IMG/VR virus record: IMGVR_UViG_3300031669_000026
Span: 1 to 59,964 of that record
DNA length: 59,964 bases
Reading direction: 5' to 3' (one strand)
Source of the DNA: a virus
Shown: positions 8,437-57,827 of the stretch, piece by piece
Numbering within the stretch: the first letter of the stretch is position 1
Layout of the letters: every line of letters starts with the position of its first letter
The notes under the pieces: model-generated
What the model saw: only the letters and a program-made list of their open reading frames with translations
Databases searched by the model: none
Told to the model about the DNA's origin: nothing
Made by a program: the position numbers and the translations under genes

Positions 8437-8487
8437 ATGAAAGCAAAATTAATTATAATCTTAATAACCTTTGGAGAGGAGGTGTAA
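8437..8487 (+). CDS. 16-codon leader peptide upstream of tail sheath
   Basis: ATG at 8437 is preceded by a strong CAAGGAGGTAAAAC ribosome site. It opens a 16-codon reading frame (MKAKLIIILITFGEEV) that ends in TAA at 8485, five bases before the sheath start. The GAGGAGGTG that serves the sheath gene is the last part of this mini-gene, so ribosomes finishing it are placed at the sheath start. This suggests translational coupling, but the peptide may be incidental. The hydrophobic sequence could also be membrane-seeking. Confidence 0.4.
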   Translation: MKAKLIIILITFGEEV

Positions 8488-19860: not shown

Positions 19861-21219
19861 ATGCCAGTACAAGAAAACAAAAGTTTTGTATGGACTCATA
19901 AAATTACTTTAAAAAATGCAGACGGATGGTTAAGATCTGAACAGGAGAGGATTATTTCCAGGATTATGGAAATATATCCTTGTAATAATTTTCATTTTAT
20001 TCAAAGATATTCTTCTCATTGTAAAGAAAATGTAGGAAATGGAAAGATAAGAGTATGGAAAACGGCTAATCAAAAAGCCAAAGGTTTGATTTCTAGATGT
20101 GAAGAAGCTCTTCTTTGGAGTACTGCAATAATTCAACCAGTGATTGCAGCAATTGCAAGAATACAACCTTCTATAATGGGAACAGCAAACATTGCACTAG
20201 GTCCACAAATATTTGGAAATGGCGATATTATTCAACCCCCAAACAAGATTGAGGGCGATGGGAGAATAAGTCCTGTAATTTCTGCAAGTGCTTTAATTTT
20301 TCCAGGAATTACTTGTACTGCAAGAATTCCTTATCAAAGATGGTCAATACCTTTAATGAAAGGGGATGCTAAAATAGTTTATACTTCTGAAAAAGTAGTA
20401 TGTGGAAACTCCAGAATAGTGTTGGGAAATTATCCGATTAACGATGCACAGGGAAATGTTAAAATAGGAAAACTTAGGGGATGTGATTTGAAAGGTGATT
20501 TGCCTTTTACTGGATGGCGTTTAACTAGAAATGGAAGCATTGAACATTTGGTGTGGTATATGAGGGGTGTTAAACAAGAAAGATGGGTGCCGAAAGTAAC
20601 GCAAATTGAAATTTGGTTTAATCCGGTTGCAGGAGATACAAATGGAGAAATATTCAGAGATACAATAGAGGATTTAATGGATTATTACACTTTTGGAAAT
20701 CGCAGAGTGGATTATATTTCAGATACAAAATTTTCAATGAAGGGCGATTATACTAATCAATTATTTAAAGGAATGAAATTGCAAATCAATTCTCCAGATT
20801 TCTGTTGTAAGTTGTTTAATGATCAAATGCAAGAATTGGCATATTTTAAATGGATGATTGATAACTTTCCTTATCAAGTAGCATTATCAAAAATAAACAG
20901 TACTAATGCATTGAAAGTAAATGCAAAAATAAATGATGATTTACATGAAGTTATAGTAATAAAATCTATTTTTAATGGAACAAATACTGTAGTGGAAGTT
21001 TCCGGAGAGGCAATTAAAGATAGCGATTGTTTAATCATGAGCTGGAGGGAAAGATTTGATAGTGTAGAAGTAGAGAAAGATTACTATCCCTTTTCTACAA
21101 ATGCACGTATACAGGCGTTTTTACGAACAACTGGAAAAATATTCTGGCTAGTAGGCCCACCAAATCTTCCTGGAAATGAAGAAGATTATGCATATAAAAT
21201 ATTGGATGTGGGAGAATAG
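19861..21219 (+). CDS. Baseplate/tail protein carrying the decapeptide repeat
   Basis: A 452-residue protein after baseplate J. Residues about 86-160 contain the same repeat type seen in the 1283-aa protein (IARIQPSIMGT, GDGRISPVISAS, CTARIP), so the two probably share a beta-solenoid module. The C-terminal half is beta-rich without recognised motifs (IEIWFNPVAGDTNGEIF). Gene order suggests a tail-fibre-proximal baseplate component, comparable in place to tail protein I, but it shows no clear similarity to that family. Function unknown. Confidence 0.55.
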   Translation: MPVQENKSFVWTHKITLKNADGWLRSEQERIISRIMEIYPCNNFHFIQRYSSHCKENVGNGKIRVWKTANQKAKGLISRCEEALLWSTAIIQPVIAAIARIQPSIMGTANIALGPQIFGNGDIIQPPNKIEGDGRISPVISASALIFPGITCTARIPYQRWSIPLMKGDAKIVYTSEKVVCGNSRIVLGNYPINDAQGNVKIGKLRGCDLKGDLPFTGWRLTRNGSIEHLVWYMRGVKQERWVPKVTQIEIWFNPVAGDTNGEIFRDTIEDLMDYYTFGNRRVDYISDTKFSMKGDYTNQLFKGMKLQINSPDFCCKLFNDQMQELAYFKWMIDNFPYQVALSKINSTNALKVNAKINDDLHEVIVIKSIFNGTNTVVEVSGEAIKDSDCLIMSWRERFDSVEVEKDYYPFSTNARIQAFLRTTGKIFWLVGPPNLPGNEEDYAYKILDVGE

Positions 21220-23098: not shown

Positions 23099-25408
23099 AT
23101 GAAAAGAACTTTATATCAGGATGGCGTTGAGGTTAAAGCAGACGATTTAAATAATACTGAAGACCAGAAGTCTATCAGCATTAAAGAAAGGAAAAAATCG
23201 TTTACACAGGCTGGTGTTATCTCTGGGATGAGAGTAACGGCTGGCGTAGGGAATACTGTAGATATAAGCTCTGGGATAGGTTTTTGTGCGAACGGTGAAC
23301 GAATTGAGTCGATCTCTGTGTCTGGAGAGTCGGTAACGTTAGACGAATATAATTTTATTTGTTTGGTTTATAAAGAGACAGAAGGAACACCAAAACCTCA
23401 TGAAGATTCTGGTATTTCATACAATACTAGAATAGAAGAATCTTATGAAGTTAAAGTTCTTATGGAAGCAGATTATAATGCTTTATCTCAAGAAGATAAA
23501 AATAATAGAATAGTTGTTGGAATAGAGAAAAATGGAATAATTCAACAATCTCTGGAAATAAAAGAAGAAATAACCTCTTCATTGATAGGTATTACTGGAG
23601 CGGATATATTGAAATTTAGTTATGGAACTCCACATGGAAAGGCATGGTTTTATTATGAATGTCTTTCTGGACCTCCTTTTATAAATCCAATAATTCGTAT
23701 TAAATACAAAGCTCCTGGAGATAGTTACGGAAGCTTTGTATCTTTGACTTCAGATAATGATTATCTTTTGATATCTAATAATCTATTAAATACTTGTTTG
23801 TTGCGGGTTAGATATAAATTTTTACCAAAAAGAAGTGCAGAGGTTTTTACAGAAATAGAAGAATTATATAATCCTCCCATAGAAGGCAATCAATTTTATA
23901 ACACTGCAACAGGAAGTGCAAAAGAAAAACTTCATAGAAACAAAGATGGTCATGGACTTCCTACGGAGGTTAATCCTCATGGTTTATGCAAAGAGGATTT
24001 ATTAGGCGGAGCAGAGGATGTGGTGGTTCATCAAAAAAGAATGCATAGTGCAAAAGATAGAACTACAGGGGATATATTTGGAAAAAATTGTATTGTATCA
24101 CAAAATTATTTTAAAACGGGTTCTACTTCTACTTTAAAACCTTATGTTTATAATGGAACATATATTTACATAAATGAATTGCCTGTTAATGATAGATATT
24201 ATATAAGAGGAGTTGGTTTTTCTGAAGTTTTCGATACAAATATTCATATTACAGGATCTGGTATTAAATATATAGGTATTTATAATGCAACACAAAAACT
24301 AGTTCAAAGCTCCTCGGAATTAGATGAAAATTATTTAAATTTATGTAGCATTTTTTTAAGTGGTGGAAATTTATTAGACTTTATTGATTTGAGAACGTTT
24401 GCTTCTCATTCTGATTTTAATATACAGAAAAAAGCTATAACAAAGGAAAAAATTAATACCGCTGCAGTAAGGAATAAACATTTATGGTCAGAGGGAGATA
24501 ATAGTTTTGTCGATCTTTTGGTGAATGGAGAAAAAGCAGATTCGTTACATACTCATTTTGATATAGTAGAAAAATGGAAAGAAAAATGGTACTTAAAAAC
24601 TCTGCTAGCAAAGCCTCAAGTTCCTATTCCAGAACCCGATTGTTGTAGAAATTATGATGGGGCTAATTTTTGTGAGGCAGATGATCCAGGAGCATCATTG
24701 ATTGGAATTACAATGGATCCTGTGACAAATACTGTTAGAATTCCATCAAGTTATAAAACTCCAGGTCAGGAAGTATCTCTCGAACAAGAAATGAGAGGAA
24801 TAGGAAGAGTTGGAAGAAATAATTTAAACGATGTTCAAGAAGCTATTGATTATTTGGCAAGTTTAATGCGGGATTTAAAAAACAGAGAATTTCCTGTTGC
24901 TACTGAAGTTATGAATACAAGCGGACGTGTTTTAAATTTAACTGTTGTTCCTCTGCCCGATGGCCATAGAACTGGAAAATGGTTTGATGGAGAAGAAGTT
25001 TTAGAAAGAGAATGTTCATGGATTGTGAGTCCTACTTTTCTATGGGGAATGGATGGTGTTATGGTACCTTGGTGTCTTATCTGTTCTTCTTTTGGATTTG
25101 GTACTGGAGGAAATCCGAACATCCCTAAAAATACATGGTCGTGGAATAATTGGGTTGAATTAATGTGGAAATTTATTAATGGAGATATTTTATACGGGCG
25201 ATGGGTAGTATTCTTTCTGTGCATGGGTGCTGTAAGTTTGGCAACATCATTGGCTTCAGTAGTTTCTACTCATGCAAATTATCATATAATTGGAAGTCAT
25301 CAGACAAGATTAGATTTTGATAAAAATTACGATTTAGGACCATCAGAGGTACCTTACGGAGGCGATCCTGGATATGTTCCAGATAATGAAAACATACCCA
25401 AAAAGTAA
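23099..25408 (+). CDS. Tail fibre paralog A (769 aa)
   Basis: Member of a fibre family that appears at least three times in this window. The N-terminus (LYQDGVEVKADDLNNTE) and a domain ending near residue 165 (EADYNALSQEDKNNRIV) are shared with genes at 25423 and 28243. A variable middle follows, then an element with NPHGL. The C-terminal ~230 residues contain SGRVLNLTVVPLPDGH, ECSWIVSPTFLWG and GRWVVFFLCMGAVSLATSL, shared with 26758 and 28243. This layout (conserved ends, variable middle) suits trimeric receptor-binding fibres. The conserved hydrophobic C-terminus is unusual for a fibre tip and may form an intramolecular core. Confidence 0.7.
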   Translation: MKRTLYQDGVEVKADDLNNTEDQKSISIKERKKSFTQAGVISGMRVTAGVGNTVDISSGIGFCANGERIESISVSGESVTLDEYNFICLVYKETEGTPKPHEDSGISYNTRIEESYEVKVLMEADYNALSQEDKNNRIVVGIEKNGIIQQSLEIKEEITSSLIGITGADILKFSYGTPHGKAWFYYECLSGPPFINPIIRIKYKAPGDSYGSFVSLTSDNDYLLISNNLLNTCLLRVRYKFLPKRSAEVFTEIEELYNPPIEGNQFYNTATGSAKEKLHRNKDGHGLPTEVNPHGLCKEDLLGGAEDVVVHQKRMHSAKDRTTGDIFGKNCIVSQNYFKTGSTSTLKPYVYNGTYIYINELPVNDRYYIRGVGFSEVFDTNIHITGSGIKYIGIYNATQKLVQSSSELDENYLNLCSIFLSGGNLLDFIDLRTFASHSDFNIQKKAITKEKINTAAVRNKHLWSEGDNSFVDLLVNGEKADSLHTHFDIVEKWKEKWYLKTLLAKPQVPIPEPDCCRNYDGANFCEADDPGASLIGITMDPVTNTVRIPSSYKTPGQEVSLEQEMRGIGRVGRNNLNDVQEAIDYLASLMRDLKNREFPVATEVMNTSGRVLNLTVVPLPDGHRTGKWFDGEEVLERECSWIVSPTFLWGMDGVMVPWCLICSSFGFGTGGNPNIPKNTWSWNNWVELMWKFINGDILYGRWVVFFLCMGAVSLATSLASVVSTHANYHIIGSHQTRLDFDKNYDLGPSEVPYGGDPGYVPDNENIPKK

Positions 25409-25422
25409 TATGGAGAATTATA

Positions 25423-26682
25423 ATGGATAGAACATTGTATCATGATGGAATAGAAATTCATGGAGATGATTTAAACAATGCCGAATCTAGTAAGATTGAA
25501 GCTCTTAAAGATAGGCGGGAGTTTGTAAAATATGGATCAATAGGATTGTTGGTTACAGCAGGTATCGGAGATACTGTAAACATAAGTGAAGGAATTGGTT
25601 ATTGTGCAAATGGAGAACAGATAAAAAGTAATGGAGAAACTAGTGTTGTTGTAATTCCAGGACAATATAATTTTATTTGTTTGATTTATAAAGAAATAGA
25701 AGGAACTCCAAAACCTCATGAGAATACAGGAGATTCCTATAATACAAGAGTTGAAGAATCTTATGAAGTTAAAGTTCTTATGGAAGCAGATTATAATGCT
25801 TTATCTCAAGAAGATAAAGATAATAGAGTCGTTTGTGGAATTTATTATGATAGTACTCATATTCAAACCGGACATGATTTATCAAGAATTCCTATTTCCA
25901 GTGTAATTGATATAAGCGGTGTATGGGTTGGACAATATAGTGAAAAGACTTTAGATGGAATAGGATATTTTGAATTTGACAGGTCTTTAATGAGTATACG
26001 ATATAAAGCACCAAGTGATTTATTGTGGGGTGCATGGGAAATAATAACACCGAGTTGGATAGATAGTGAGAATATAAAGCTAGAATCTTATAATGCTGAT
26101 TATTGGGTGTATGTAGAAATTTTATCATCTTTATTGCCTGTTGAAAATGCCGATGCAGAGGTTAATGTAAGAGATTTATACAATCCGCCTATTGAAGGTG
26201 ATATGGAATTGGGTTACAATACACCAACATCTTCTTCAGTGGATAGATTTCATAGAGGAACACATTTAATATATCCACCATCAGTGGATGAAGATGGCGG
26301 CATCAGTGAAAAAAACCCGCATGGAATGCATAGCAAAGATTTGACAGGTTATCAAGCCGATGTTCATAGACATCAGGATTTGATGCATTGTAATGGTATT
26401 CTTGCAAAAGAATGGTTTTTAACGGGCGAATCAGATGTATTAAAACCAGTTTGTGATGAAGCTAATAAAAAAGTCACAATTACAAATGATTTAGGGATTG
26501 ATGATTATTATCATATAAATGGTGTGGTATTTGACGATGTTGATGAAACGTTTCCGTGGGAATATACTTTTGGGATAGGTTTGTGGTACGTAGTTTTAGG
26601 TCCGGATAAAAAGTTTCATATTTTTGAGGATTCGTATAATACTAAAAAATATATTCCAATTGTTAGGGTGTATTTGAGTTAA
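25423..26682 (+). CDS. Tail fibre paralog B, N-terminal half
   Basis: A 419-residue protein matching the N-terminal half of paralogs A and C, with LYHDGIEIHGDDLNNAE, the same YNFICLIYKEIEG and VKVLMEADYNALSQEDK blocks, and NPHGM. It stops at YIPIVRVYLS, where the others continue into a SGGN/LLDF-like segment. A trace of the expected continuation (codons for LLDF) is readable in another frame just after the stop at 26684-26695, then a stop. It therefore looks like a full-length fibre gene broken by mutation or rearrangement, or a two-chain fibre. The missing C-terminal half is encoded by the next gene. Confidence 0.65.
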   Translation: MDRTLYHDGIEIHGDDLNNAESSKIEALKDRREFVKYGSIGLLVTAGIGDTVNISEGIGYCANGEQIKSNGETSVVVIPGQYNFICLIYKEIEGTPKPHENTGDSYNTRVEESYEVKVLMEADYNALSQEDKDNRVVCGIYYDSTHIQTGHDLSRIPISSVIDISGVWVGQYSEKTLDGIGYFEFDRSLMSIRYKAPSDLLWGAWEIITPSWIDSENIKLESYNADYWVYVEILSSLLPVENADAEVNVRDLYNPPIEGDMELGYNTPTSSSVDRFHRGTHLIYPPSVDEDGGISEKNPHGMHSKDLTGYQADVHRHQDLMHCNGILAKEWFLTGESDVLKPVCDEANKKVTITNDLGIDDYYHINGVVFDDVDETFPWEYTFGIGLWYVVLGPDKKFHIFEDSYNTKKYIPIVRVYLS

Positions 26683-26709
26683 ACTACTGGACTTTTAGTG
26701 TTTTGGGTA

Positions 26710-26739
26710 TTGATGTTATTTTAGAAGTAAGTTTATAAT
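26710..26739 (+). promoter_or_regulatory. Possible promoter before 26758 gene
   Basis: TTGATG (26710) and TATAAT (26734) are separated by 18 bp, in the gap between the two halves of the split fibre. This would give the C-terminal-half gene its own transcript start. The -35 is imperfect. Confidence 0.4.
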
Positions 26740-26757
26740 AATTAAAAGGAATTTTTT

Positions 26758-28224
26758 ATGATTAAAAGGTGGGATTCTAAAGCAGATTGGGAGACTTATT
26801 TTTCCAAGGATGCTGTTATTATAATAACTCCAGATGGTAAATTAACAGAGGGAGGAAATAGACAAGGACATGTGATCTACCATTATGATTCAGGCATTCC
26901 TTTAAGCAAGTGGATTGAGTCAAGGATATCTTGTGAATGTGAACCAATTGTTCCTCCCCATGTCACTCTTGTTCAAGTGACTTTTAAGTTTGCAGAAACT
27001 GTGGAGGATTTAACTTTAGCCACTTCTTATCAATATTATGGATGCTATCAACCTGGAGGATTACACGAATTTCCTGTGGATTTGAGTAGTTATGTAGGAA
27101 GATGGATTAGTGTTGATTTTAGACTTTTAACAACCGATAATCTTTTATTCAAATCTTATGTTGATTGGATTGAAGTTGAGTATGAGTCCGAACCCACGCC
27201 TCCACCAACATTTGAATGTGAGGATATTCGTCCATTCGCAACAATTTGTAAAGATGTGGTTCAAGATAAAGCAATTATTCCAAAGAAAATAGACGATGGT
27301 GAAGTACGACAAGAAAATTTATGGGATAGAGGAGATGATAGAACTATAGAAAATTTAGTAAAAGGTGAAACAACTTTTGCTGATGATCTTCATGGGCATA
27401 AAGCTATATTGGATATGTATAATATGTGGGCAAAAAGATGGTATTATAAAAAATCTTTATATAAACCCCAAAATCCTCCTGATGAAAGTACATCACAGGC
27501 AGGTGCAGATTTAGTTGGTTATAAAGTAAAAAGTAATACAGCGTTACAACCTTCCTGGAATATAGATAATGTAGATGAAGCCATTTTAGCGTTGTCTCTT
27601 TTGATGAAAGGTTTAAAGGAAAGAAAATTTCCAACCATTCAAGAAACAATGCATACTTCAGGAAGAATGTTAAATTTGACTTTTGTACCTTTACCGGATA
27701 ATCATACTAATGGAAAATGGTACGATGGTACAAATGTTAAAGAATCTCAATGTTCGTGGATAGTAAGTCCATCTTTTATATGGGGAATAGATGGAGTTCC
27801 AACTCCGTGGGTTTTTTCATGTTCAACATACGGTGTTGGATCAGGAGGGGAATATCCACCTCCACAAGAAGGAACAAAATGGAATTGGGAACAATGGCAT
27901 TACTTTTTTACAAGAATTATAAATGGAAATATTTTATACGGTAGATGGTTAATTCAATTTCTTTGTGCAGGTACTACAAGTCTTTTCTCTTCATTATTTT
28001 TTGTACTTGCTGTTCATGCTAACTATACTATTGTGGGAACTCATTGGTTTGGAGAGGAGGAAGAAACATCAGTTAAAGATCACGGAAGTTACAGAGATGA
28101 AAATGGAAATTATATTAATGGTTGGTATTTAAATAAAATAATTGATTATAATAACCCTGATAATCATTATGATTCTGATTGGGTTTTAAATCCCGAAAAT
28201 CCTACAATTTTTCCAATAGAATAA
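26758..28224 (+). CDS. Tail fibre paralog B, C-terminal half fused to a new N-terminal domain
   Basis: A 488-residue protein. Residues 1 to about 155 form a module not found in paralogs A and C, starting KRWDSKADWETYFS, which resembles the KIWTTKEDFDSG opening of the 1283-aa protein and is probably a beta-sandwich. A Pro-rich link (EPTPPPTFE) follows. From about residue 170 on, the protein matches the fibre C-terminal part: DKAIIPKKIDDGEVRQENLW, SGRMLNLTFVPLPDNH, CSWIVSPSFIWG and GRWLIQFLCAGTTSLFSSL. It has its own AAAAGGA ribosome site. It appears to have arisen by recombination placing a different domain on the fibre C-terminus. Confidence 0.65.
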   Translation: MIKRWDSKADWETYFSKDAVIIITPDGKLTEGGNRQGHVIYHYDSGIPLSKWIESRISCECEPIVPPHVTLVQVTFKFAETVEDLTLATSYQYYGCYQPGGLHEFPVDLSSYVGRWISVDFRLLTTDNLLFKSYVDWIEVEYESEPTPPPTFECEDIRPFATICKDVVQDKAIIPKKIDDGEVRQENLWDRGDDRTIENLVKGETTFADDLHGHKAILDMYNMWAKRWYYKKSLYKPQNPPDESTSQAGADLVGYKVKSNTALQPSWNIDNVDEAILALSLLMKGLKERKFPTIQETMHTSGRMLNLTFVPLPDNHTNGKWYDGTNVKESQCSWIVSPSFIWGIDGVPTPWVFSCSTYGVGSGGEYPPPQEGTKWNWEQWHYFFTRIINGNILYGRWLIQFLCAGTTSLFSSLFFVLAVHANYTIVGTHWFGEEEETSVKDHGSYRDENGNYINGWYLNKIIDYNNPDNHYDSDWVLNPENPTIFPIE

Positions 28225-28242
28225 TTAAAAGGAGATGATAAA

Positions 28243-30444
28243 ATGAAAAGAAGCAAATATCAAGATGGTGTTGAAGTTCACATGGAGGATTTAAACAACA
28301 CTGAAAAAACAAAGGCAGATGCTATAAAAGAAAGACAAAAAAGTTTTACTCAGTCAGGTACAATTGCAGGATTGAGAGTTACTCCTAATACTTTTACTCC
28401 TTCTCATATAGATATTGGAGTAGCGGGTCCGGGTGGTATATGTTATTGTGAAAACGGAGAAAGAATAGAAGTACCTTCGGCTGTACTGGATAAACAGTTG
28501 GCAGATGAAACTATGGATGTTTATAATTTTATTACTCTTGTTTATACAGAAGTGGAAAGTGATTATAAAGAACATGAATCTGATGGAAATACTTATCCTA
28601 CAAGAGCAACAGAAAGCTATGTAGTAAATATTTTATCTGAAGCTGATTATGGAAGTTTGTCACAGGAAGAAAAAGAAAACAGAGTGGTTGTAGGAATTGT
28701 TCGAGCAAACGGCCCAGGATTGGCATTATCTCAAAATAGAATTCAGACCAGTCTTGAATTATTACCTATAATTACTTCTACGGCAATAGATATTGATGGT
28801 GTTTGGTTATTAAGGTTTAGTGATAATACTGAAAGAGGATCGGCTTCTTTTAAATATACTTATTCCAGTGAAAAAAGAGAAATTCAATACATGGCTCCGA
28901 ATGATACAGATTACGGTGCTTCGGTAACATTGGTCGGAGATGGGGATTATTTATTAGAATCAAATGATACAGATTTCTGGTGTAGAATTAGAATTATTAT
29001 AATTATGATGCCCACTGCTAGTTTAACAGTATCAACAAATGTTACAAAATTATATGAACCTCCTTTAGAAGGTTCTACAGAATTATATCCAACTCCTACT
29101 GCAACTGCAGTAGATAGATTGCATAGAACAAAAATAGGAACAGGATTGCCAACTTCAAACAATCCGCATGGATTGACGTATGATGATTTAACTGGTGGTT
29201 TTACAGATGTGACAAAGCATCAAGATTTAATGCATGCCAATGGTATAGTTTCGCAAACATGGGAAGAAACAGGTTCCTCCAATTGTTTAGCATGTTCAAT
29301 AAATGTTGGAACAGTTTTAGTTTCACAACCAGGAGCAAATGAATTTTATTTTGTACATGGTTTGGGATTTTCTACAATAGAAGGAATTACAAGTGTGGTG
29401 TGGAATATAACCGATCCAGCAGGAACATGGTTTATAGCTTTGGGAACTGATCAACAATTGCACAAAAGTTTATTGGCTTTTGATGAAGATGATTATTTAA
29501 TACTTTGTAGTGTTGATGTGACAGTGAGCGGCGGTAATAGATTGTTAGGAAATTTGGTTGATTTTAGAAAATTTGGAACTACAGCAACAGGAAATATTCA
29601 AGATAAGGCAATTACTCATAAAAAGATAGACGATGGTGCGGTTAGACAAAAACATTTATGGGCCGATGGCGATGATCAGACATTGGAAGCATTGGTTAAA
29701 GGTCCAAATAGTAATGCTGATCATCTACATTACCACGATGTTGAAGATCCGAGAGATTTATTTTATCTTAAACCTTTACTATATGCGCCCCAATCAACTG
29801 AACCAGATGAAGTAGGTTCAATTTCAGGAGCTAATTTGGTAGGTTATAAGAATCCAATGATTGATAAAGAAGGAGAGGATTATGGAGATTTGTTTCCAGA
29901 GGATGTTAAAACTATTCAATCGGCCATTGATAAGTTAGCAGCTTTGATGAAAACAGAAATGGCAAGAGAATGTCCTCAAGTACAGGAGATAATGCATTCG
30001 GGTGGACGCATGTTAAATTTGACTTTTGTACCCTTACCAGATAACCATTTAAATGGTGGTTTTTGGAAAGATGGAGTTACGCAAGTTTCAGAAGACCAAT
30101 GTTCTTGGATAGTAAGTCCAGCTTTTGTATGGGGCGCAGCGGCGGCTGCAGTTCCGTGGGTTTTTTGTTGTTCAACATTTGGTTTGGGAGTGGGAGGAGA
30201 TTTTCAACCAACTAATGATTCGGCATGGACGGGCGATGGAAGCAGCGCAGCTAGTTTTACTGCAGCTTGGAAAAATTGGCTATTGTTATTTAATGCTGTA
30301 TTAAATGGACAAATTGCTTGGGGAAGATGGTTGATAATGTTGGTTTTTGTTGGTACGGTAAGTGGGATTCTCTCAATTTTTAATGTTTTTGGGTCACATG
30401 CAAATTATCAAATTACTGCAACTAATCCAAAACCTATAAGTTAA
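28243..30444 (+). CDS. Tail fibre paralog C (733 aa)
   Basis: Full-length member of the fibre family: KYQDGVEVHMEDLNNTE at the start, EADYGSLSQEEKENRVV near residue 155, NNPHGLTYDDL in the middle, then DKAITHKKIDDGAVRQKHLW and the C-terminal block with SGGRMLNLTFVPLPDNH, CSWIVSPAFVWG and GRWLIMLVFVGTVSGILSI. Compared with paralog A, the middle third is most divergent. Three coexisting versions suggest different receptors or a heteromeric fibre. AAAGGAGATGAT precedes the ATG. Confidence 0.72.
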   Translation: MKRSKYQDGVEVHMEDLNNTEKTKADAIKERQKSFTQSGTIAGLRVTPNTFTPSHIDIGVAGPGGICYCENGERIEVPSAVLDKQLADETMDVYNFITLVYTEVESDYKEHESDGNTYPTRATESYVVNILSEADYGSLSQEEKENRVVVGIVRANGPGLALSQNRIQTSLELLPIITSTAIDIDGVWLLRFSDNTERGSASFKYTYSSEKREIQYMAPNDTDYGASVTLVGDGDYLLESNDTDFWCRIRIIIIMMPTASLTVSTNVTKLYEPPLEGSTELYPTPTATAVDRLHRTKIGTGLPTSNNPHGLTYDDLTGGFTDVTKHQDLMHANGIVSQTWEETGSSNCLACSINVGTVLVSQPGANEFYFVHGLGFSTIEGITSVVWNITDPAGTWFIALGTDQQLHKSLLAFDEDDYLILCSVDVTVSGGNRLLGNLVDFRKFGTTATGNIQDKAITHKKIDDGAVRQKHLWADGDDQTLEALVKGPNSNADHLHYHDVEDPRDLFYLKPLLYAPQSTEPDEVGSISGANLVGYKNPMIDKEGEDYGDLFPEDVKTIQSAIDKLAALMKTEMARECPQVQEIMHSGGRMLNLTFVPLPDNHLNGGFWKDGVTQVSEDQCSWIVSPAFVWGAAAAAVPWVFCCSTFGLGVGGDFQPTNDSAWTGDGSSAASFTAAWKNWLLLFNAVLNGQIAWGRWLIMLVFVGTVSGILSIFNVFGSHANYQITATNPKPIS

Positions 30445-40106: not shown

Positions 40107-40143
40107 AGATAAAAACAATTATTAATTTTAGGGAGGAAAGCAA

Positions 40144-40293
40144 ATGGCAGAAGTTAAAATAACAAAGGAAAAGAAAGCGGAATATTTGCAAAAAATAAAA
40201 AACAGAATATGTCTTAAATGTGGTGCGAAACATACCAAAAAGTATTGTAATGCTTTATGTCCTGTTTGTTATAAACTGTTTAGAAAAGTTTGA
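40144..40293 (+). CDS. Small zinc-knuckle protein (49 aa)
   Basis: A 49-residue protein. ATG 40144 is preceded by AGGGAGGAAAGCAA, identical to the ribosome site of the 40451 gene. The N-terminus (MAEVKITKEKK) is nearly the same as the EVKVTKEKK in that gene. The rest has CLKCGAKHTKKYC and CPVCY, probably one zinc site. The 3' part is copied again at 40318-40374. The gene seems to be a chimera made from its downstream neighbour and a zinc knuckle. Confidence 0.55.
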   Translation: MAEVKITKEKKAEYLQKIKNRICLKCGAKHTKKYCNALCPVCYKLFRKV

Positions 40294-40414: not shown

Positions 40415-40450
40415 GTAATCAATTGTTAATTAATTTAGGGAGGAAAGCAA

Positions 40451-41071
40451 ATGGCTGGAATAGAAAGTTTATTAAATGAAGTTAAAGTAACAAAGGAAAA
40501 GAAAAGTAACGGTAAAGAAAAAGTATTTTATCCCTGTCAGAAAAGAGTAGTTGATGATATTGTATCATTAAAAAAGGAAAGAGATAATCTTAATACTGAT
40601 ATTGCCAAAAAAGAATACGATTTAGAAATAGGTGTCAGAGCAAAAAGAGAAGGCGATGCGAAAAGAGGAAATTATATCCAGACTTATTATTTGGAAGGAA
40701 GTGACCAAACAATTAGAGTAACTTGCAGCGACCGTTTTAGTAATATAGCAGAAGAAGATGTGGAGGATTTGAAAGAATTTTGTAAAAGTAAGGATCTGGA
40801 ATTTGATAATTTTTTTACTACAAAAGAAAGTCTCCAGACAAAGTCTGAAGCTTTTACAAAAGAAAATCTTAATAAAATGTTGGATTCTTTTAAGAAGACT
40901 TTTGGAAAAGAAGGCGGAGTTGATTTTTTTAAAAGTATGTTTGAATATACAAACGTGGTTTCGCCATCCAAAGGTTTTGATAAATCCCAATTTGATTTGC
41001 AGGATGATGTTAGAAATGAAATAACAACTCGTTTTACCAAACAAGCAAAAGCATCCGTTGTTACAAAGTAA
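40451..41071 (+). CDS. Hypothetical protein (206 aa)
   Basis: A 206-residue protein with a long central coiled coil (KKERDNLNTDIAKKEYDLEI), a short YIQTYYLEGSDQTIRVTCSD beta segment, and a helical C-terminal region. It follows a consensus promoter and ribosome site, so it is likely an abundant early product, possibly a scaffold or nucleic-acid-binding protein. The N-terminus was partly copied into the 40144 mini-gene. Confidence 0.55.
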   Translation: MAGIESLLNEVKVTKEKKSNGKEKVFYPCQKRVVDDIVSLKKERDNLNTDIAKKEYDLEIGVRAKREGDAKRGNYIQTYYLEGSDQTIRVTCSDRFSNIAEEDVEDLKEFCKSKDLEFDNFFTTKESLQTKSEAFTKENLNKMLDSFKKTFGKEGGVDFFKSMFEYTNVVSPSKGFDKSQFDLQDDVRNEITTRFTKQAKASVVTK

Positions 41072-43999: not shown

Positions 44000-44596
44000 A
44001 TGAAAAAATATACATTTGTAAAAATAAAATATAAGGGATTTGGTGACTGGGGTTGGTGGTTAAAAATAGAAAATTGGTTGCAGCTTTATGATTGGTACAT
44101 GGAAGTACAGGCAAGAATAGTTGGTTGGGGTGTCTTAAATTTTTTAGCTTCAAAAGAGTTTCACTATCTTATATCGGATAAACCCCATAAAAAAAATCAT
44201 TACAATACAGCATACGGCCAAATACTTTTGTTCGAAGCAAAAAAACAATTTGCATTAGGTAAAAAAGTTGGTCTTATTTCATTAATAGAATTTTTATCCA
44301 AGACTTTGTTGGAAGATAAAACTAAACAGCTAAACAAAGGAATTATTTTGTATATAAACAAGGCTGGTGGTTATTCTCCTGAATGTAAGTCATTTGAAGA
44401 AATTGATTTTGTAAAAAAAGATGAATGTATATTTCCAGAATGTACAGAAAATGATATTAAGATTTTACAGTGGGATGGTGGAAAACACTGGTACGCCAAG
44501 TTAGGTGGCACGGATGTTGTGGTTGATGGTAAGCAAAAATGGAAAACTTATGATCAAGCAAAAAACAGCGCAATAGAATTTTTAAAAGTTTTATGA
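44000..44596 (+). CDS. Hypothetical protein (198 aa)
   Basis: A 198-residue protein in the operon with NADAR; the start has only a weak ribosome site, and it probably depends on coupling. Its aromatic N-terminus (FGDWGWWLKIENWLQLYDWY) and C-terminal segment HWYAKLGGTDVVVDGKQKW are notable. The end overlaps the next gene by a few bases. Function unknown. Confidence 0.5.
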   Translation: MKKYTFVKIKYKGFGDWGWWLKIENWLQLYDWYMEVQARIVGWGVLNFLASKEFHYLISDKPHKKNHYNTAYGQILLFEAKKQFALGKKVGLISLIEFLSKTLLEDKTKQLNKGIILYINKAGGYSPECKSFEEIDFVKKDECIFPECTENDIKILQWDGGKHWYAKLGGTDVVVDGKQKWKTYDQAKNSAIEFLKVL

Positions 44597-44616
44597 AATA
44601 TGAGAAAAGAGGGAAT

Positions 44617-45060
44617 ATGATAAATAACTTTTCAGGTAATTATAGATTTTTAAGTAACTTTTATGAACATGAGATTTGTGTGGATGAAATACCATATCCA
44701 ACAATGGAACATTACTTCCAAGCCCAGAAGACTAATAACTTGGAAGAATTTAGTAAAATTATAAACGCACGATCGCCTGGAAAGGCGAAAAGAATTGGTC
44801 GAACAGTAGTACTGAAAGATGATTGGGAAAATATCAAAATATCATTAATGGAAAGAGGACTTCAAGAAAAATTTAAGGATAACATACTCAAAATTCAATT
44901 ACTTCATACTGGAGAGAATGAGTTAGTTGAAGGAAATAATTGGAACGACACCTTTTGGGGTGTATGCAAAGGGGCCGGAAGGAATGAGTTAGGAAAACTT
45001 CTTATGAAGCTTAGAGATAAATTGAGAAGAGATGAGGAAATAAATTTAAAAAAGTTATGA
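44617..45060 (+). CDS. NADAR domain protein (YbiA-like)
   Basis: Start at ATG 44617 with AAAAGAGGG upstream. The protein (147 aa) shows the NADAR/YbiA signature end to end: SGNYRFLSNFYEHE, PYPTMEHYFQAQKT, RIGRTVVLKDDW, ENELVEGNNWNDTFWG and GRNELGKLLMKLR. Family members cleave N-glycosidic bonds in riboflavin intermediates, and several remove ADP-ribose from nucleic acid, where they counter DarT-like toxins. In a phage this may be anti-defence, but that is inference. It overlaps the SNF2 gene by four bases. Confidence 0.87.
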   Translation: MINNFSGNYRFLSNFYEHEICVDEIPYPTMEHYFQAQKTNNLEEFSKIINARSPGKAKRIGRTVVLKDDWENIKISLMERGLQEKFKDNILKIQLLHTGENELVEGNNWNDTFWGVCKGAGRNELGKLLMKLRDKLRRDEEINLKKL

Positions 45061-47353: not shown

Positions 47354-47626
47354 ATGCCGTATATTAAGAAAGAAGATAGAAAGTGGTTTGATGAATCAAT
47401 TAATGAATTAGTTGATAGATTATGTTCATTAGAGGATGGCCCTGTTGCTGGAGAATTAAATTATGTAATTTCAAGCATATTAGTAAGATGCATGAGAAGA
47501 AAAAAACTTTGTTATAAACTTGCTAACAGGTTGGATGGTGTCTTAGGTTGTGTTTGTAAGGAATTTTATAGGCGGTGGATCGTCCCTTATGAGGACATAA
47601 AAATCAAAGAGAATGGAGATATATAA
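47354..47626 (+). CDS. Small phage protein (90 aa)
   Basis: Starts after GGAGGAGGTG with MPYIKKEDRKWFDESINEL, a start I associate with a widespread uncharacterised phage family of about 80-90 residues; GELNYVISSILVRCMRR is the other conserved part. Helical. It is coupled to the next gene with a one-base gap. Function unknown. Confidence 0.6.
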   Translation: MPYIKKEDRKWFDESINELVDRLCSLEDGPVAGELNYVISSILVRCMRRKKLCYKLANRLDGVLGCVCKEFYRRWIVPYEDIKIKENGDI

Positions 47627-47627
47627 A

Positions 47628-48827
47628 ATGTTAACAGAAAAACAATTACAAAAATATGCTGATGTGTTAATATGGGGTCTTAAGAAAGCTCGAAAGAAAA
47701 AATATAAAAAAGGTGATATTGTTGTTGTACAATTTGATTTAGGAGCACTTAGGCTTGCTGAGATTTTGCAAGTAAAGTTGTTACAGATAGGATTGAACAC
47801 TCTTATTAAAATGAGTGGAACTGAAACAATGATTTGTGACTTTTATATGAATGCTAATAATGACCAATTAGTTTGGAATTCTCCCTGGAGTAAAAAATAT
47901 GCAAAAAATATCAATGGTGGTATTTATCTTTATGCTCCCGAAGATCTTACTTATTTGAAAGATGTTGATTCAAAGAAGATTGCTCAATCTGCGATATCCA
48001 GAAAATTTATAAAAGATATTTTCGAGAGAAGGGTCCAAGAATGTGAATATGGTTGGACATTGTGTTGTTTACCAACTAAAGCACTTGCTGACGGAGCGTG
48101 CATGAATTTAAAAGATTATACAAATCAAATTGTCAGAGCTTGTTATCTTAATACAATTGACCCAGTTCAAGAATGGGAAAATATGTATAAATCATCTCAA
48201 AGTATTCAGAAAAGATTAAATCACATGCTAGTGAAATCTTATCATATTAAATCACCAAGCATTGATATGGTGATAACTATTGGTGATAATAGAAAGTGGC
48301 TTGGATCAAATGGTTGTAACATTCCAAGTTTTGAGATCTTTACTTCTCCAGATTGGAGAGGAACAGAGGGAGTTTATAATGCAGATTTTCCATCTTATCG
48401 AAATGGAAATTATGTAAAAGGTGTAAAACTTGTGTTTGAAAAAGGAAAAGTTGTTAAAGCCACTGCCGAAAAAGGAGAAAAGTTTTTGAAGAGTCAGTTG
48501 GAAACGGATAATGGTGCTAAAGGAATTGGGGAATTTGCTTTGACAGATAAGAGATTTTCAAAGATTAATGCTTTTATGGCAGATATATTGTTTGATGAAA
48601 ATTATGGCGGGAAGTATGGAAGCATGCACATAGCTCTTGGGGATTCATATACTGATACTTATGATGGTAATCTCAAAACAATGACAAAAGCAAAAAAGAA
48701 GAAGTTAGGTTTTAATGATTCATCAATACATTGGGATTTAATAAATACTGAGAGGAAAACAGTTACGGCCAAACTTTATGATGGCAATGAGGTTATAGCT
48801 TACAGGGATGGAAAATTCATTATTTGA
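47628..48827 (+). CDS. M29-family aminopeptidase
   Basis: A 399-residue protein (ATG 47628 chosen because GGAGA precedes it). It matches aminopeptidase family M29 over its length: NIPSFEIFTSPDW, GIGEFALTDKRFSKI, DENYGGKYGSMHIALG and GFNDSSIHWDLINTE supply the five metal ligands (two Glu, two His, one Asp). M29 enzymes are cytosolic, dimeric, metal-dependent aminopeptidases. The conserved Gly of GExFTSP is Phe here. Phage copies are rare; it could act in protein turnover or inactivate a host peptide, which is unproven. Confidence 0.88.
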   Translation: MLTEKQLQKYADVLIWGLKKARKKKYKKGDIVVVQFDLGALRLAEILQVKLLQIGLNTLIKMSGTETMICDFYMNANNDQLVWNSPWSKKYAKNINGGIYLYAPEDLTYLKDVDSKKIAQSAISRKFIKDIFERRVQECEYGWTLCCLPTKALADGACMNLKDYTNQIVRACYLNTIDPVQEWENMYKSSQSIQKRLNHMLVKSYHIKSPSIDMVITIGDNRKWLGSNGCNIPSFEIFTSPDWRGTEGVYNADFPSYRNGNYVKGVKLVFEKGKVVKATAEKGEKFLKSQLETDNGAKGIGEFALTDKRFSKINAFMADILFDENYGGKYGSMHIALGDSYTDTYDGNLKTMTKAKKKKLGFNDSSIHWDLINTERKTVTAKLYDGNEVIAYRDGKFII

Positions 48828-51104: not shown

Positions 51105-51119
51105 AGAAGAGAGAAGTGT

Positions 51120-51254
51120 TTAACTTAATTATTACTTTTTAACAATCAATAATTAACTTAACTTTTTTAAAGCTATTTCATAATTAAGTTAATTTTTATA
51201 CATCTTTTAAGAATTTAAGTTAAAAATTTTGTTAATTTTCAAAAATTAACTTAA
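51120..51254. repeat. Five phased TTAA(C/G)TTAA sites
   Basis: Sites 1, 2 and 5 read TTAACTTAA; sites 3 and 4 read TTAAGTTAA, i.e. the same near-palindrome on the other strand. Centre-to-centre spacing of 31-33 bp is close to three helical turns, so bound proteins would align on one face of the DNA. Confidence 0.8.
51231..51250. repeat. Perfect AT-rich inverted repeat
   Basis: GTTAATTTT and AAAATTAAC are complementary with a two-base loop. It falls between array sites 4 and 5 and its right arm overlaps site 5. Confidence 0.6.
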
Positions 51255-51344
51255 TTCTTGAAGGGTGCTAAAGAGTGTTTTTTATAGATATTATAGCGAT
51301 GAGGGAAATATAGGGGAATAACTATAAATGCTGTATAGTAGAAT

Positions 51345-51368
51345 AGTACTAATACTAGTACTAATATT
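51345..51368. repeat. Tandem 12-mer duplication
   Basis: AGTACTAATACT is followed directly by AGTACTAATATT (one mismatch), about 60 bp upstream of the 51426 gene. Could be a regulator site. Confidence 0.45.
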
Positions 51369-51425
51369 TGTATTCTTCTTAAAAGAATGAATGAAAGTAA
51401 TAAAAGAATTGAAAAGGGAATTTTT

Positions 51426-52136
51426 ATGGAAATTAATTTAGAACAAATTAAAGAGAAAATTGAAAGACGAATAAAAAATAGATTGGAAAAAATAGATTGG
51501 GAAATTGTTTTCGGATTAACTGAATTTTATATAGCTGGAAATTCACTTAATATTGGAAAACCTAACGACCTTGATTTATTTCCAATTAGGAAAAATGATT
51601 TTATAAAAATTAAAGATTTGGTTTTTAAGAACAAATTTTCTATAAAATCTTCAACAAAAAATGCATTAACTATAAAACATAAGGATAGAATAATTCAATT
51701 CTGTAATTATCATTTTGATAGTTTGGAAGAATTGGTAGAATCTTTTGATTTTTCCCATATTAAAATAGGTGCAAAAATATTTTGCAATAATGGAAAGATT
51801 TTTTCAAATGATATGTACATGTCTTCGGATTATATAGAATCTCAGGTTGTAGGAAGAACATGGTTTACTGGGAGTTCATATCCGTTGTCGTCCTTAATGC
51901 GGCTATTTAAGTATTATAAAAATGAGGATGGAGTGTTCCGACAACAGTTTATCTACGAGAGTATTAAAATATTAAATCAGATTATTTCTAGGGGAATGTA
52001 TAGCTATAAAGACTTTAAAGAACAATTAGATGCGGTTGATTTAGGATTGGTTCCGGAAGATTTTAAAGAATTAACTAAAAACAATGATGTATTATCTGAA
52101 TTGTTTTCCCTTCTTAAAAGAGGTGATAACAAGTGA
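51426..52136 (+). CDS. Nucleotidyltransferase-fold protein (236 aa)
   Basis: Start at ATG 51426 with AAAAGGG upstream. AGNSLNIGKPNDLDLFPI (residues 37-54) is the GS/GN...DxD signature of the nucleotidyltransferase fold, here with Asn in the loop. A later helix (WFTGSSYPLSSLMRLFKYYK) and FDSLEELVESF fit T4-like phage members of this fold. The next gene overlaps by four bases (GTGA). Substrate unknown. Confidence 0.65.
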   Translation: MEINLEQIKEKIERRIKNRLEKIDWEIVFGLTEFYIAGNSLNIGKPNDLDLFPIRKNDFIKIKDLVFKNKFSIKSSTKNALTIKHKDRIIQFCNYHFDSLEELVESFDFSHIKIGAKIFCNNGKIFSNDMYMSSDYIESQVVGRTWFTGSSYPLSSLMRLFKYYKNEDGVFRQQFIYESIKILNQIISRGMYSYKDFKEQLDAVDLGLVPEDFKELTKNNDVLSELFSLLKRGDNK

Positions 52137-53242
52137 GAATTCTGAAAAAAATGGTTGTCACTCCATTGGCAATTAGTTGTATGAATGATGGTGTTTATAC
52201 ATTATCAGACCGAATACGCAAGAAGGTTTTTAATAATTATGATGATGTTTGTATCTTATGTGAGGAAAGATGGAAACAATTTGCAGTATGGGATTCAAAT
52301 ATCAAAAAACCAAGTTGGACGAAAAGTGAAAAATCTGAAGTACGTTTGGAAAATATGTATCGATTGGGAATGGCATTGGATCAGTTAAATAATCCAAAAC
52401 GAGAAGATGATTATATATATTCTTCTATTTTCCAATCTGATTCAGAATCTATTTCCAAAGGTTTAAAATTTTTACATAGTGTAAAGTATCTTAAAGCATG
52501 GGAATCTTTTTATGAAAAAATAACAGTATTTGGTTCTTATGAAAAAATATTTTTATCTGTTACTCAATTGTATGAAGAATATATTCATTTCTGTACGGAA
52601 GTTTTACAAAAAAAGCCTTTTATGAAATCAATACAAATGATTTCTGGAAGTTATGAATATTCAGATTTTGGTCCTTTGTTGAACTCCGCAGTTTGGTGTA
52701 TTAGATATGAAATTGATCCATCAGTTTATGTAAAAGTTATGTATGATGCTTTTATGGTTTTTCAAGAACAAAAACAAGGTGATGCGGGAGGTTTATATTT
52801 TTCTACTAAACACATTGGAAGCACCTCTCAAGTAAGGCCATCAGTTAAAAAGTTTAAAATGCATGATGAAAAAGTTCACCCATGGAAGGAGATAATTCAA
52901 TTTTTGGGTTTAAATGAAAACATAAAAATTGAATGTATAAGAGGAATTCCATTAGGATTCAATCTTGCAAAAAATCATGAAGCAAGTGGAGGAAGCTTAA
53001 AAGATATAATACTTATTCATGATAGTAGTTATTGGGCGAAAGGTATTAACTATGAAGCTTGTTTTCAATTTAATGATAATTCTGCTTTTGCACTTTATGT
53101 GACGCCAGAGAATTTTCACGAATTTAAAGATAAATGGTATGACGATGACCCTCAGATTCCCGATTATGAGGTTTTACGAAAAAACGGAAGTAATATTACA
53201 AGAGAAAGATATACGGCAATTAGAAAATTAATTAGGAGATAG
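52133..53242 (+). CDS. Large helical protein of unknown function (369 aa)
   Basis: Starts at GTG 52133, overlapping the preceding stop, with AGAGGTG upstream. A long, mostly helical N-terminal half is followed by a mixed C-terminal half (IRGIPLGFNLAKNHEASGG, PWKEIIQFLG). Not recognised. It probably works with the NTase-like protein just before it. Confidence 0.55.
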   Translation: MRILKKMVVTPLAISCMNDGVYTLSDRIRKKVFNNYDDVCILCEERWKQFAVWDSNIKKPSWTKSEKSEVRLENMYRLGMALDQLNNPKREDDYIYSSIFQSDSESISKGLKFLHSVKYLKAWESFYEKITVFGSYEKIFLSVTQLYEEYIHFCTEVLQKKPFMKSIQMISGSYEYSDFGPLLNSAVWCIRYEIDPSVYVKVMYDAFMVFQEQKQGDAGGLYFSTKHIGSTSQVRPSVKKFKMHDEKVHPWKEIIQFLGLNENIKIECIRGIPLGFNLAKNHEASGGSLKDIILIHDSSYWAKGINYEACFQFNDNSAFALYVTPENFHEFKDKWYDDDPQIPDYEVLRKNGSNITRERYTAIRKLIRR

Positions 53243-54370: not shown

Positions 54371-55594
54371 ATGGAACCTAGATTTGGTGATTATTTACCT
54401 GTTGAAATTTATAAAGTTTTGAAAGAAGTTGGGTTTAATGGTGATCCAGGGAATTATATTTATGTTTACCTTTCAAATCCTATGAACACCGTTATGCTGT
54501 CTCATTTTGATTTTGTAAAGTCTCGTTGTGATCTTTGTAGATTTAATAATAGTAAGCAAAGAATGTCAGGATTGTACGAGTTGAAGTTTAAAGATTCAAT
54601 TGGGAATTGTAGTTTGTGTATATTATATTTTAATATGGATTATTTAAGTGGCCGACAACATCAGAATTTTTGTGGGTTGTTAATTCAGAAGAGTTATCAA
54701 GAACAATCTTTTAAAACATTAGCTAATTTGTATATAAAGTATGGTGGTTGTAGAGAACCAGAGACTACAGTGAGAGATTTATCTTGGGATAGGATTTTTT
54801 TAAATAAGGATTTGAAAGATGAGTTGAAGAAAGATTTCGAAAGTTTTTTGAAGAGTAGAGAATTTTATAATAAGGAATTGAAGTTACCGTGGAAAAGAGG
54901 CTATATGTTTTATGGTCCTCCAGGTAATGGAAAAACATTATTGATTAAAACACTAGCAAAAGTTTATGATCTCCACACTTATGATATGAAATGTGCATGT
55001 CGAAACGGGGAACTCTTCATAGAAGAACATAGAACTATGGATCCATTTAAAAGTATTCATGATTATGTTTATCCCGAGGATATAAAACCAACTATTTATT
55101 ATATTGAGGATATTGATAAGTTTACAACAGGTACAGGAACAGAGGATGCCGCCACAGTGAAGTTACATAATTTGGTAAAGGGTTTGGATGGTGTTGTTGA
55201 TATAGATGATGTGATTGTTATAGCGACAACTAATGAAATGAATTCTTTGTGTGAGGCGCTTGCAAACAGACCAGGTAGATTTGATGTGATAAGGGAGATA
55301 GGCCATCCAGATGTAAAAGCAATTAAAAGTCTTTTTAAATATTATGAATTTGAAGTTATAGATGATTTGGTTTGTTCTATGGTCGAAGATAAGTTTACAA
55401 TGGCTTACGCAGAGGAGTTTGTAAAAGTTGCAAAAACTCGTTATTATAAGATTAATTTAAATAGTGATGAGCTTAATAATTTATACAATGAAATAAAAAA
55501 CCATATTAAAAAATTTGAACGAAATTTCAAAGATATAAATAGTAATGTTGGATTTAGAGAACATTATATTACAGATGCAAATGGTGCGGACTAG
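54371..55594 (+). CDS. AAA+ ATPase with N-terminal zinc finger
   Basis: A 407-residue ATPase of the classical AAA type. N-terminal C53-x2-C56 and C80-x2-C83 look like one zinc finger. Walker A is GPPGNGKT (182-189), Walker B IYYIEDID (E246), and ANRPGRFD is the second-region-of-homology arginine finger. It resembles BCS1/FtsH-like AAA modules and not a typical clamp loader. Function in the replication block may be remodelling or a loader role. GAAAGGAGA precedes its start. Confidence 0.78.
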   Translation: MEPRFGDYLPVEIYKVLKEVGFNGDPGNYIYVYLSNPMNTVMLSHFDFVKSRCDLCRFNNSKQRMSGLYELKFKDSIGNCSLCILYFNMDYLSGRQHQNFCGLLIQKSYQEQSFKTLANLYIKYGGCREPETTVRDLSWDRIFLNKDLKDELKKDFESFLKSREFYNKELKLPWKRGYMFYGPPGNGKTLLIKTLAKVYDLHTYDMKCACRNGELFIEEHRTMDPFKSIHDYVYPEDIKPTIYYIEDIDKFTTGTGTEDAATVKLHNLVKGLDGVVDIDDVIVIATTNEMNSLCEALANRPGRFDVIREIGHPDVKAIKSLFKYYEFEVIDDLVCSMVEDKFTMAYAEEFVKVAKTRYYKINLNSDELNNLYNEIKNHIKKFERNFKDINSNVGFREHYITDANGAD

Positions 55595-55619
55595 CATTTT
55601 GAGAGAAAATGAGGTATTA

Positions 55620-56936
55620 ATGAAATTTTCACAAGAATTAGAATTTGAATTTTTTGCGAGATTGTTGCAAGATGCTGATTATATTGAAAGTTATTCAGAA
55701 CAATTAAAAAAATACAAAGGTTTGTCATTTCCAATTGAATGGATTCGCATAGAAATTTTGAAATGGAATAAGGATTACAAGGGGTTGCCGCCAAATGAAT
55801 ATTGGGCATTTAAAGCGGAAAATGAATTACAGGAAGATAAAAGAAAAATTATTTTATCTACTATAGAAACCCTTTTAAATCATGAGAAAAAATTTGAGGA
55901 ATTTGCAAAAGATCAATTTATAGACTTCATTTGTTCTCAAAGTTTGGAAAAATCATACGAAGAAGGAAAGGATTTATTTCAAAGAACTCTGGATGTTAAT
56001 TTATTTTTTTCCAAAATAACAGAAGGATTGGTTGATTCGGAAAGATTAAGATATGGTAAAAATCCGGATAGAGTAGTTGATTGGTTGGAGCAACGTCCAA
56101 AAAGAGAGTCACGAAGAGGATTGATTTCTGAGGGTTTGAAACTTGGAATTCCATTGTTAGATGATCAGCTAACTTTTAAAAGAGGAACACTTAGTTTATT
56201 TCAGGGTCCTTATAAAAGATATAAATCTATTATGCTTCATCATTGTGGATTTGCTGCATTGTTGCAAGGATATAACGTATTGCATGTGAGTTATGAAAAT
56301 ACAGAGCAACAGGTTGGCGATAGATATGATTCTCGTTTTACTATGATCGATTACAAAAGAATGGTTAGAAATTTAATTTCTATAGAAGAAAAAGAATTAA
56401 TGGAAACTGTTTTTGAAAGATTAGAAAAATTACCAAATAGATTAAAAATTCAATTATGTGTTCCGTATGAAGATAATATCGATGTGGTAGAAAAAGGAAT
56501 TATTAAACTTAAAAATGTTCATAGCTGGGCGCCTGATGTAGTAATTTTGGATTATATTAATCTTCCCGCTTGTAAAAAGAAAGATATTGAAGATGATTAC
56601 AAACGCATAGAACTTGTTTGTTGGGATCTGCAAAATCTTGGAAAATTGAAAGATATGGTAATGATATCTGCTTGTCAATCTGTTAAAGGTGCAGAAGATG
56701 AAAACGATTTAAAAGGTTCAGATACAGCAGGTTCTGTTGGAATTTTAAGAGCTTGTGATAATCAAATAGCTATTAATCAGACAGATGAAGAGTTTAAGCA
56801 AGGAATTATTAGATTATCGCCAGTATTTTTTCGAGACGATGAGTTAATAACAAAAAATATCCCTATGAATCATGAATTAACACGAATGTGTGTGTCTCGT
56901 GAAAGTGATAATTTGTGGAGAGAATTGGAAGATTAA
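55620..56936 (+). CDS. DnaB-like replicative helicase with divergent P-loop
   Basis: Start at ATG 55620 (GAGGT upstream); 438 residues. The C-terminal RecA-like domain has FQGPYKRYKSIML at the Walker A place (196-203), where the Gly before Lys is Tyr. VSYEN supplies the catalytic Glu (E226), VVILDYI the Walker B Asp (D311), and ISACQSVKG matches the later sensor. The N-terminal 150 residues are helical. It follows the loader and AAA gene and precedes primase, the standard replisome order. The odd P-loop should be checked for ATP binding. Confidence 0.78.
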   Translation: MKFSQELEFEFFARLLQDADYIESYSEQLKKYKGLSFPIEWIRIEILKWNKDYKGLPPNEYWAFKAENELQEDKRKIILSTIETLLNHEKKFEEFAKDQFIDFICSQSLEKSYEEGKDLFQRTLDVNLFFSKITEGLVDSERLRYGKNPDRVVDWLEQRPKRESRRGLISEGLKLGIPLLDDQLTFKRGTLSLFQGPYKRYKSIMLHHCGFAALLQGYNVLHVSYENTEQQVGDRYDSRFTMIDYKRMVRNLISIEEKELMETVFERLEKLPNRLKIQLCVPYEDNIDVVEKGIIKLKNVHSWAPDVVILDYINLPACKKKDIEDDYKRIELVCWDLQNLGKLKDMVMISACQSVKGAEDENDLKGSDTAGSVGILRACDNQIAINQTDEEFKQGIIRLSPVFFRDDELITKNIPMNHELTRMCVSRESDNLWRELED

Positions 56937-56975: not shown

Positions 56976-57827
56976 ATGATCGATATTAGAACCTATATTT
57001 TAATAAATTTTCCAGAAGGACGAGAGCGTAAGGGAGGGGAAGAAATAATGATAAAATGCCCATTCCATGAAGAAACTATGCCATCTCTATCAATTAATTT
57101 AGAATCTGGAATCTGGAGATGTTTTGGCTGTAATAAAAGGGGAAATTTTACTGCATTATACAAATATTTTGAGAAAGTTTCTTGGAGAGAGGCAAAAGAG
57201 AAATGTTCTGGTATTTATTATGAAAAAAGTGACAAAGAGAAAAAATTAGTTAATATCAAATTGCCCGAAGGATTGATATCTTGTAGGATAAAAATATCTC
57301 CGTATCTGAAATCCAGGGGTTTTTCAGCAGAAGATTTAGAGCCTTTTGATGTTTTTTGGAAATTTTCTAATTTTATGGTATATTTTCCTATTTATGAACA
57401 AAATGGAAAATTGATAAGTTACGCAAGTAGAAAAGCTTCTGGAAGAGATTATTATTATCCGAGTGAAAGTCCTCACATGAATTATCTGTATGGTGAGAAT
57501 TTAAAATTGAAAGATAAGGTTTTTATAGTAGAGGGAGTATTGGATGCAATTTCAGTCAATAGGGCGGGATTTAGTGCATTGGCAACATTTACAAAACAAT
57601 TTTCAGGATCGCAATTGAACAGATTAAAAGATTTTATAAAAAATGGAAGATGTAAAGAATATGTTATTATGTTAGATGCAGATGCAGAAGAACAATCTGA
57701 TTTGTTACAGTATCAATTATTGTTGATGGGTTGTAAAACAGACCAGATAAAATTAGAAATTGGAGATCCTGGTGAAAAAAGTATTGAAGAAATAAGGGAT
57801 TTGACATTCTCGAATAATACGTTATAG
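56976..57827 (+). CDS. DnaG-like primase (zinc and Toprim domains)
   Basis: A 283-residue primase. The zinc motif is CPFHEETMPSLS (C28, H31) plus WRCFGC (C49, C52), the CHC2 type. Toprim follows with FIVEGVLDA (E186) and IMLDADAEE (D234, D236). It is much shorter than DnaG and lacks the helicase-binding C-terminus, so it is a compact phage primase. It makes RNA primers at the fork. TAAGGAT precedes the ATG. A promoter overlaps the 3' end. Confidence 0.88.
   Translation: MIDIRTYILINFPEGRERKGGEEIMIKCPFHEETMPSLSINLESGIWRCFGCNKRGNFTALYKYFEKVSWREAKEKCSGIYYEKSDKEKKLVNIKLPEGLISCRIKISPYLKSRGFSAEDLEPFDVFWKFSNFMVYFPIYEQNGKLISYASRKASGRDYYYPSESPHMNYLYGENLKLKDKVFIVEGVLDAISVNRAGFSALATFTKQFSGSQLNRLKDFIKNGRCKEYVIMLDADAEEQSDLLQYQLLLMGCKTDQIKLEIGDPGEKSIEEIRDLTFSNNTL

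Follow-up and report, generated by a model that had tools for sequence, protein, structure and literature searches.

Five phased TTAA(C/G)TTAA sites upstream of the replication genes of a divergent myovirus: a candidate origin or operator array

In the origin of phage lambda, several inverted-repeat sites bind initiator dimers, an AT-rich region next to them opens, and transcription runs through it (PMC5043065), and the iterons of plasmids are helically phased, to the point that a disturbance of the phase can inactivate the origin (PMC5043065). Here, we describe an array of five TTAA(C/G)TTAA sites in a 59,964-base fragment of an uncultured virus (IMG/VR record IMGVR_UViG_3300031669_000026; hereafter "the window", meaning this whole stretch), which is an incomplete contig and part of a divergent myovirus. 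As in the lambda origin with its O-protein iterons, inverted-repeat sites, AT-rich DNA, and nearby helicase-loader genes (lambda P; DnaC-like here) are found together. The lambda O-protein sites lie inside the O gene, whereas the array occupies a non-coding gap, has a three-turn spacing, and comes with no recognisable O-like initiator among the ~40 window proteins that we tested for known families (Pfam and PHROG among the libraries). The sites also differ in length, 19 bp in lambda (PMC5043065) against 9-bp cores here.

Plasmid iteron origins of the P1, RK2, and R6K type resemble the array in having short helix-phased sites beside or within AT-rich DNA (PMC5043065), while the array departs from them in its near-palindromic cores, its mixed site orientation, and the lack of any Rep gene found. 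The centromeres of TubZRC- and ParMRC-type systems (tubC and parC) likewise consist of short repeats arrayed upstream of an operon, which in their case are bound cooperatively (PMC5016525). For the present array, in contrast, the proteins tested revealed no partition genes. Centromere repeats are, moreover, usually closer together than the sites of the array. Multi-site phage operator arrays share with it the palindromic sites upstream of an operon; here, however, no regulator or promoter was identified, and both the number of sites and the strictness of their phasing exceed what is usual for such operators.

Five sites at a three-turn spacing

The array is more than chance. It consists of the following sites:

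51120-51128, + strand: site 1, TTAACTTAA, C centre
51153-51161, + strand: site 2, TTAACTTAA, C centre
51184-51192, - strand: site 3, read as TTAAGTTAA on the + strand, opposite orientation, G centre
51215-51223, - strand: site 4, read as TTAAGTTAA on the + strand, opposite orientation, G centre
51246-51254, + strand: site 5, TTAACTTAA, C centre

An earlier sequence-only reading had placed five 9-mers at start-to-start spacings of 33, 31, 31, and 31 bp, i.e., about three DNA turns, with two of them inverted, and the positions proved to be exactly as claimed: Sites 1, 2, and 5 point forward, and sites 3 and 4, the inverted pair, point in the reverse direction. Site 3 and the site 5 region additionally form a perfect inverted match of 16 bp. 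Upon aligning all five sites in one orientation, we found that they have in common, beyond the 9-bp core, flanks that are A-rich on the left and T-rich on the right, whereas the spacers between them are only 41% alike (identity, 0.41). The array is thus a row of sites and not a repeated unit, as would follow from selection on the sites themselves and not on such a unit. A simple tandem repeat was rejected on this spacer identity and on the array not being reported by Tandem Repeats Finder, and a CtrA-type TTAA-N7-TTAA site was rejected as no TTAA pair lies 11 bp apart. Elsewhere in the window, just two further exact copies of the 9-mer occur, at 38979 (within a gene) and at 49882 (near the start of an RlaP-like gene). 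With a position weight matrix (PWM) of the site, the next-best matches fell at 35009 and 49882, both in coding sequence, and the non-coding DNA of the window gave no other strong match besides the array.

Such an array was not reproduced by random sequence. In 20,000 dinucleotide-preserving shuffles of the 282-bp gap, the sites occurred 0.088 times on average and three times at most, versus the five observed, and no 9-mer of any kind attained five copies in 5,000 shuffles. A spacing this equal, for the given span, has a probability of about 8e-5; the phase coherence at 10.5 bp (0.94, P about 0.02) is a weaker claim than the equal spacing. Simulated sequence of the gap's composition (40 x 60 kb = 2.4 Mb) contained no phased 9-mer family of at least four copies. 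In a scan of 1.74 Mb of real sequence (the window and 93 other loci), nothing but the array of the window matched, and a second scan over 1.45 Mb (81 loci) returned only one exact 18-bp tandem repeat.

The array sits in a gap with several further features:

51105-51425: non-coding gap with the array, assuming that the next gene starts at ATG 51426
51122-51256: most AT-rich (87.4%) 135-bp stretch of the window, a candidate unwinding region that overlaps the sites
51231-51250: perfect inverted repeat GTTAATTTT-CA-AAAATTAAC, overlapping site 5
51344-51367: two tandem 12-mers, TAGTACTAATAC/T

The gap follows a 63-codon open reading frame (ORF) that ends at 51104. At its other end, the longest ORF of the next gene starts at 51387, but ATG 51426, which is preceded by a Shine-Dalgarno-like AAAAGGG, is the more likely start. 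The location had been described as gene-free and AT-rich, and this was borne out: Only ORFs of 20-22 codons overlap the gap, and no 135 bp of the contig are more AT-rich. Among all 135-bp windows of the contig, the one starting at 51121 has the lowest duplex stability (z = 3.7). Of two structures said to accompany the array, the tandem 12-mers are indeed present, and the inverted repeat exists and is perfect, yet it overlaps site 5 and does not merely adjoin the array.

Candidate functions of the array

Dimers of a single protein, occupying nearly the same face of the DNA, best explain the near-palindromic cores and the near-constant three-turn spacing. Building on the observed sites, their spacing and non-randomness, the low duplex stability, and the neighbouring genes, we favour, at a probability of roughly 0.4, a cooperative dimer-bound array that acts as the initiator-binding part of the phage replication origin. 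We infer the following sequence of events: One dimeric DNA-binding protein would bind all five sites; its dimers, about three turns apart on nearly the same helix face, would cooperate in a single nucleoprotein complex; this complex would strain and open the very AT-rich DNA of the array; and the DnaC-like loader and the DnaB-like helicase, which are encoded just downstream, would enter at the opened DNA, with replication as the outcome. The genes concerned are the following:

51387-52136, + strand: first downstream gene, PHROG_4400-like (function unknown), with nucleotidyltransferase resemblance by a DLD motif
52133-53242, + strand: orphan 369-amino acid (aa) gene before the loader, no Pfam, PHROG, or known-phage match
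53536-54312, + strand: DnaC-like helicase loader
54371-55594, + strand: AAA ATPase
55545-56936, + strand: DnaB-like replicative helicase (PHROG_19; Pfam DnaB_C below cut-off)
56976-57827, + strand: DnaG-type primase

Replication genes had been said to begin 2.4 kb downstream, which agrees with the DnaC-like loader, the first replication-type gene, starting 2.4 kb from the array start and 2.3 kb from the array end. Further downstream-encoded proteins on the same strand are a sigma-factor-like protein, a uracil-DNA glycosylase, and a probable sliding clamp, and a clamp-loader delta subunit, RuvC, and a 5'-3' exonuclease are encoded elsewhere in the window. Such a gene content would fit a phage that itself supplies part of a bacterial-type replisome.

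In common with iteron origins, the array displays a short site in multiple copies above chance, helical phase, and AT-rich, easily unwound DNA at the sites. Several results weigh against an origin or are neutral, however. Neither GC skew nor GC skew at third codon positions (GC3 skew) changes across the array, such that the proposed check of GC skew, here made over the window, lends no support to a bidirectional origin, although the uniform direction of the genes makes this test a weak one. The AT-rich stretch is not adjacent to the sites but overlaps them. No initiator, winged-helix, or helix-turn-helix (HTH) protein was recognisable among the proteins tested of this incomplete contig, and HTH_3 had no match in the window; several proteins near the array belong to no assigned family. 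For the orphan 369-aa protein, a single-sequence structure prediction reached a mean predicted local distance difference test (pLDDT) score of 35, too low in confidence for use. Last, searches with the tail sheath, RlaP, and AAA ATPase yielded no relative that covers the array region. The proposal of an origin or segregation array thus stands in part: Phased sites for a bound protein are statistically well supported and lie in the least stable DNA upstream of the loader, helicase, and primase genes, and the origin or segregation role is plausible, while the flat skew and the lack of a recognisable initiator among the proteins tested are against an origin or neutral, and segregation is the weaker half because no partition gene was found among the proteins tested. 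A more specific proposal, which we regard as unlikely, is an origin of an unfamiliar kind, in which a deeply divergent myovirus with bacterial-type replisome parts would use short TTAA(C/G)TTAA dimer sites at three-turn spacing, read by an initiator outside the known families, such as the orphan 369-aa protein.

An operator or enhancer array is nearly as likely as an origin. Here, a phage or host regulator would switch the operon that runs from 51387/51426 into the replication genes, with the multiple phased sites giving a sharp cooperative switch. The array lies ~170 bp upstream of the next gene start and before a long run of same-strand genes, and palindromic sites with common flanks would suit a dimeric regulator. 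Against this, no good sigma-70-type promoter was among those listed for 51255-51425, though phage promoters may differ, and the window contains no other convincing operator, the next-best PWM matches being inside coding sequence. Five sites over 135 bp are also more than most operators need. We slightly prefer the origin on the grounds that the array sits on the contig's weakest DNA and, lambda-like, upstream of a loader-helicase-primase block.

We consider it clearly unlikely that the array is a centromere-like partition site, a packaging site, or a set of recombinase arm sites. Partition sites, too, consist of short repeats in arrays, to which small DNA-binding proteins with a second role as repressors bind (PMC5016525), but no ParA/ParM/TubZ/ParB-like, integrase, or terminase gene near the array was found among the proteins tested, with the caveat that the contig is incomplete and such genes could be located elsewhere. 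Very unlikely, in turn, is an RNA element in which the sites pair as arms of transcript hairpins, with sites 4 and 5 forming a long AU hairpin and sites 1 and 2 a shorter one. The fold of 51105-51300 does surpass 200 of 200 shuffles (z = -3.4), mainly through the AU hairpin of sites 4 and 5; such hairpins, however, arise automatically from repeated near-palindromes, an RNA stem has no use for an equal 31-bp spacing, the window has no Rfam match, and folding as DNA is less exceptional (z = -1.9). Chance, or a neutral by-product of extreme AT-richness, is extremely unlikely: Although the gap is 79% A+T and each site is all A/T except one base, shuffles and simulations of the same composition, the check suggested for this case, never reached the array, and none comparable to it was found in 174 other loci (3.1 Mb).

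Relatives, look-alikes, and other features of the contig

Almost all genes of the window lie on the + strand, with myovirus tail genes first (tail sheath at 8471), followed by DNA-metabolism genes. Known phages showed no similar DNA, and a similarity search with the array region came back empty. Using the tail sheath as the query, we recovered this virus from a second sample (100%) and a relative at 71%, on 37-kb contigs that stop short of the array region, as well as a 40% relative on a 110-kb contig that has neither the helicase nor the array. The nucleotidyltransferase-like gene and the DnaB-like helicase had no match in viral_contigs, and the RlaP and AAA ATPase queries (80 loci each) gave no syntenic locus. 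With Rctr197k (197 kb), the common genes are structural only, and no such site is present there.

Pattern scans for three phased sites in viral and bacterial collections yielded no close look-alike of the array, most of the matches being simple or tandem repeats. The few matches that had no obvious short-unit repeat were unrelated, namely the loci L005, L128, and L131 and some irregular AT-rich clusters. L005 and L128 were set aside as repeats of a 31-bp unit, unlike the window's array, and L131 for its strong GC-rich hairpins. In L005, an unrelated 130-kb viral contig, three TTAAGTTAA copies at 31-bp spacing (8139-8209) adjoin a field of TTGTTAA...TTAACAA palindromes upstream of a promoter-like site. 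In L131, a Saprospiraceae contig, TTAACTTAA/TTAAGTTAA flank two such hairpins at a spacing of 31-32 bp (4890-4961). In literature searches for the exact 9-mers, none of the listed titles was a relevant precedent.

Some further observations concern other parts of the window. A NADAR-domain protein (44593-45060; Pfam E 2e-30) is encoded in the region of the nucleotidyltransferase-like genes, with RlaP at 49845, and 47613-48827 encodes a full-length peptidase of the M29 (thermophilic metalloprotease) family (Pfam E 1e-106) that has no PHROG match. Two 41-bp stretches that are 80% alike (40119-40159 and 40426-40466) contain GGGAGGAAAGCAAATGGC and each run into an ATG; these repeated gene-start leaders perhaps reflect a duplicated gene or a shared control signal. 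The proteins at 3068-6919 and 19861-21219 contain a short motif like NGRIQPIITA in many degenerate copies, which are partly visible as 30-bp tandem repeats at 4499-4849. Similar tail-type genes succeed one another across 23099-30444 (23099, 25423/26758, and 28243), with matching N- and C-terminal parts, where 25423 and 26758 have the appearance of a single copy split in two.

Meaning for uncultured phages

The array is real, unusual, and testable but alone reveals no new principle, since phased site arrays are already well known. For most uncultured phages, the origins and master switches are unknown, and a clear, testable array of sites beside a block of replisome genes is a place to seek an initiator or regulator that has no known relatives.
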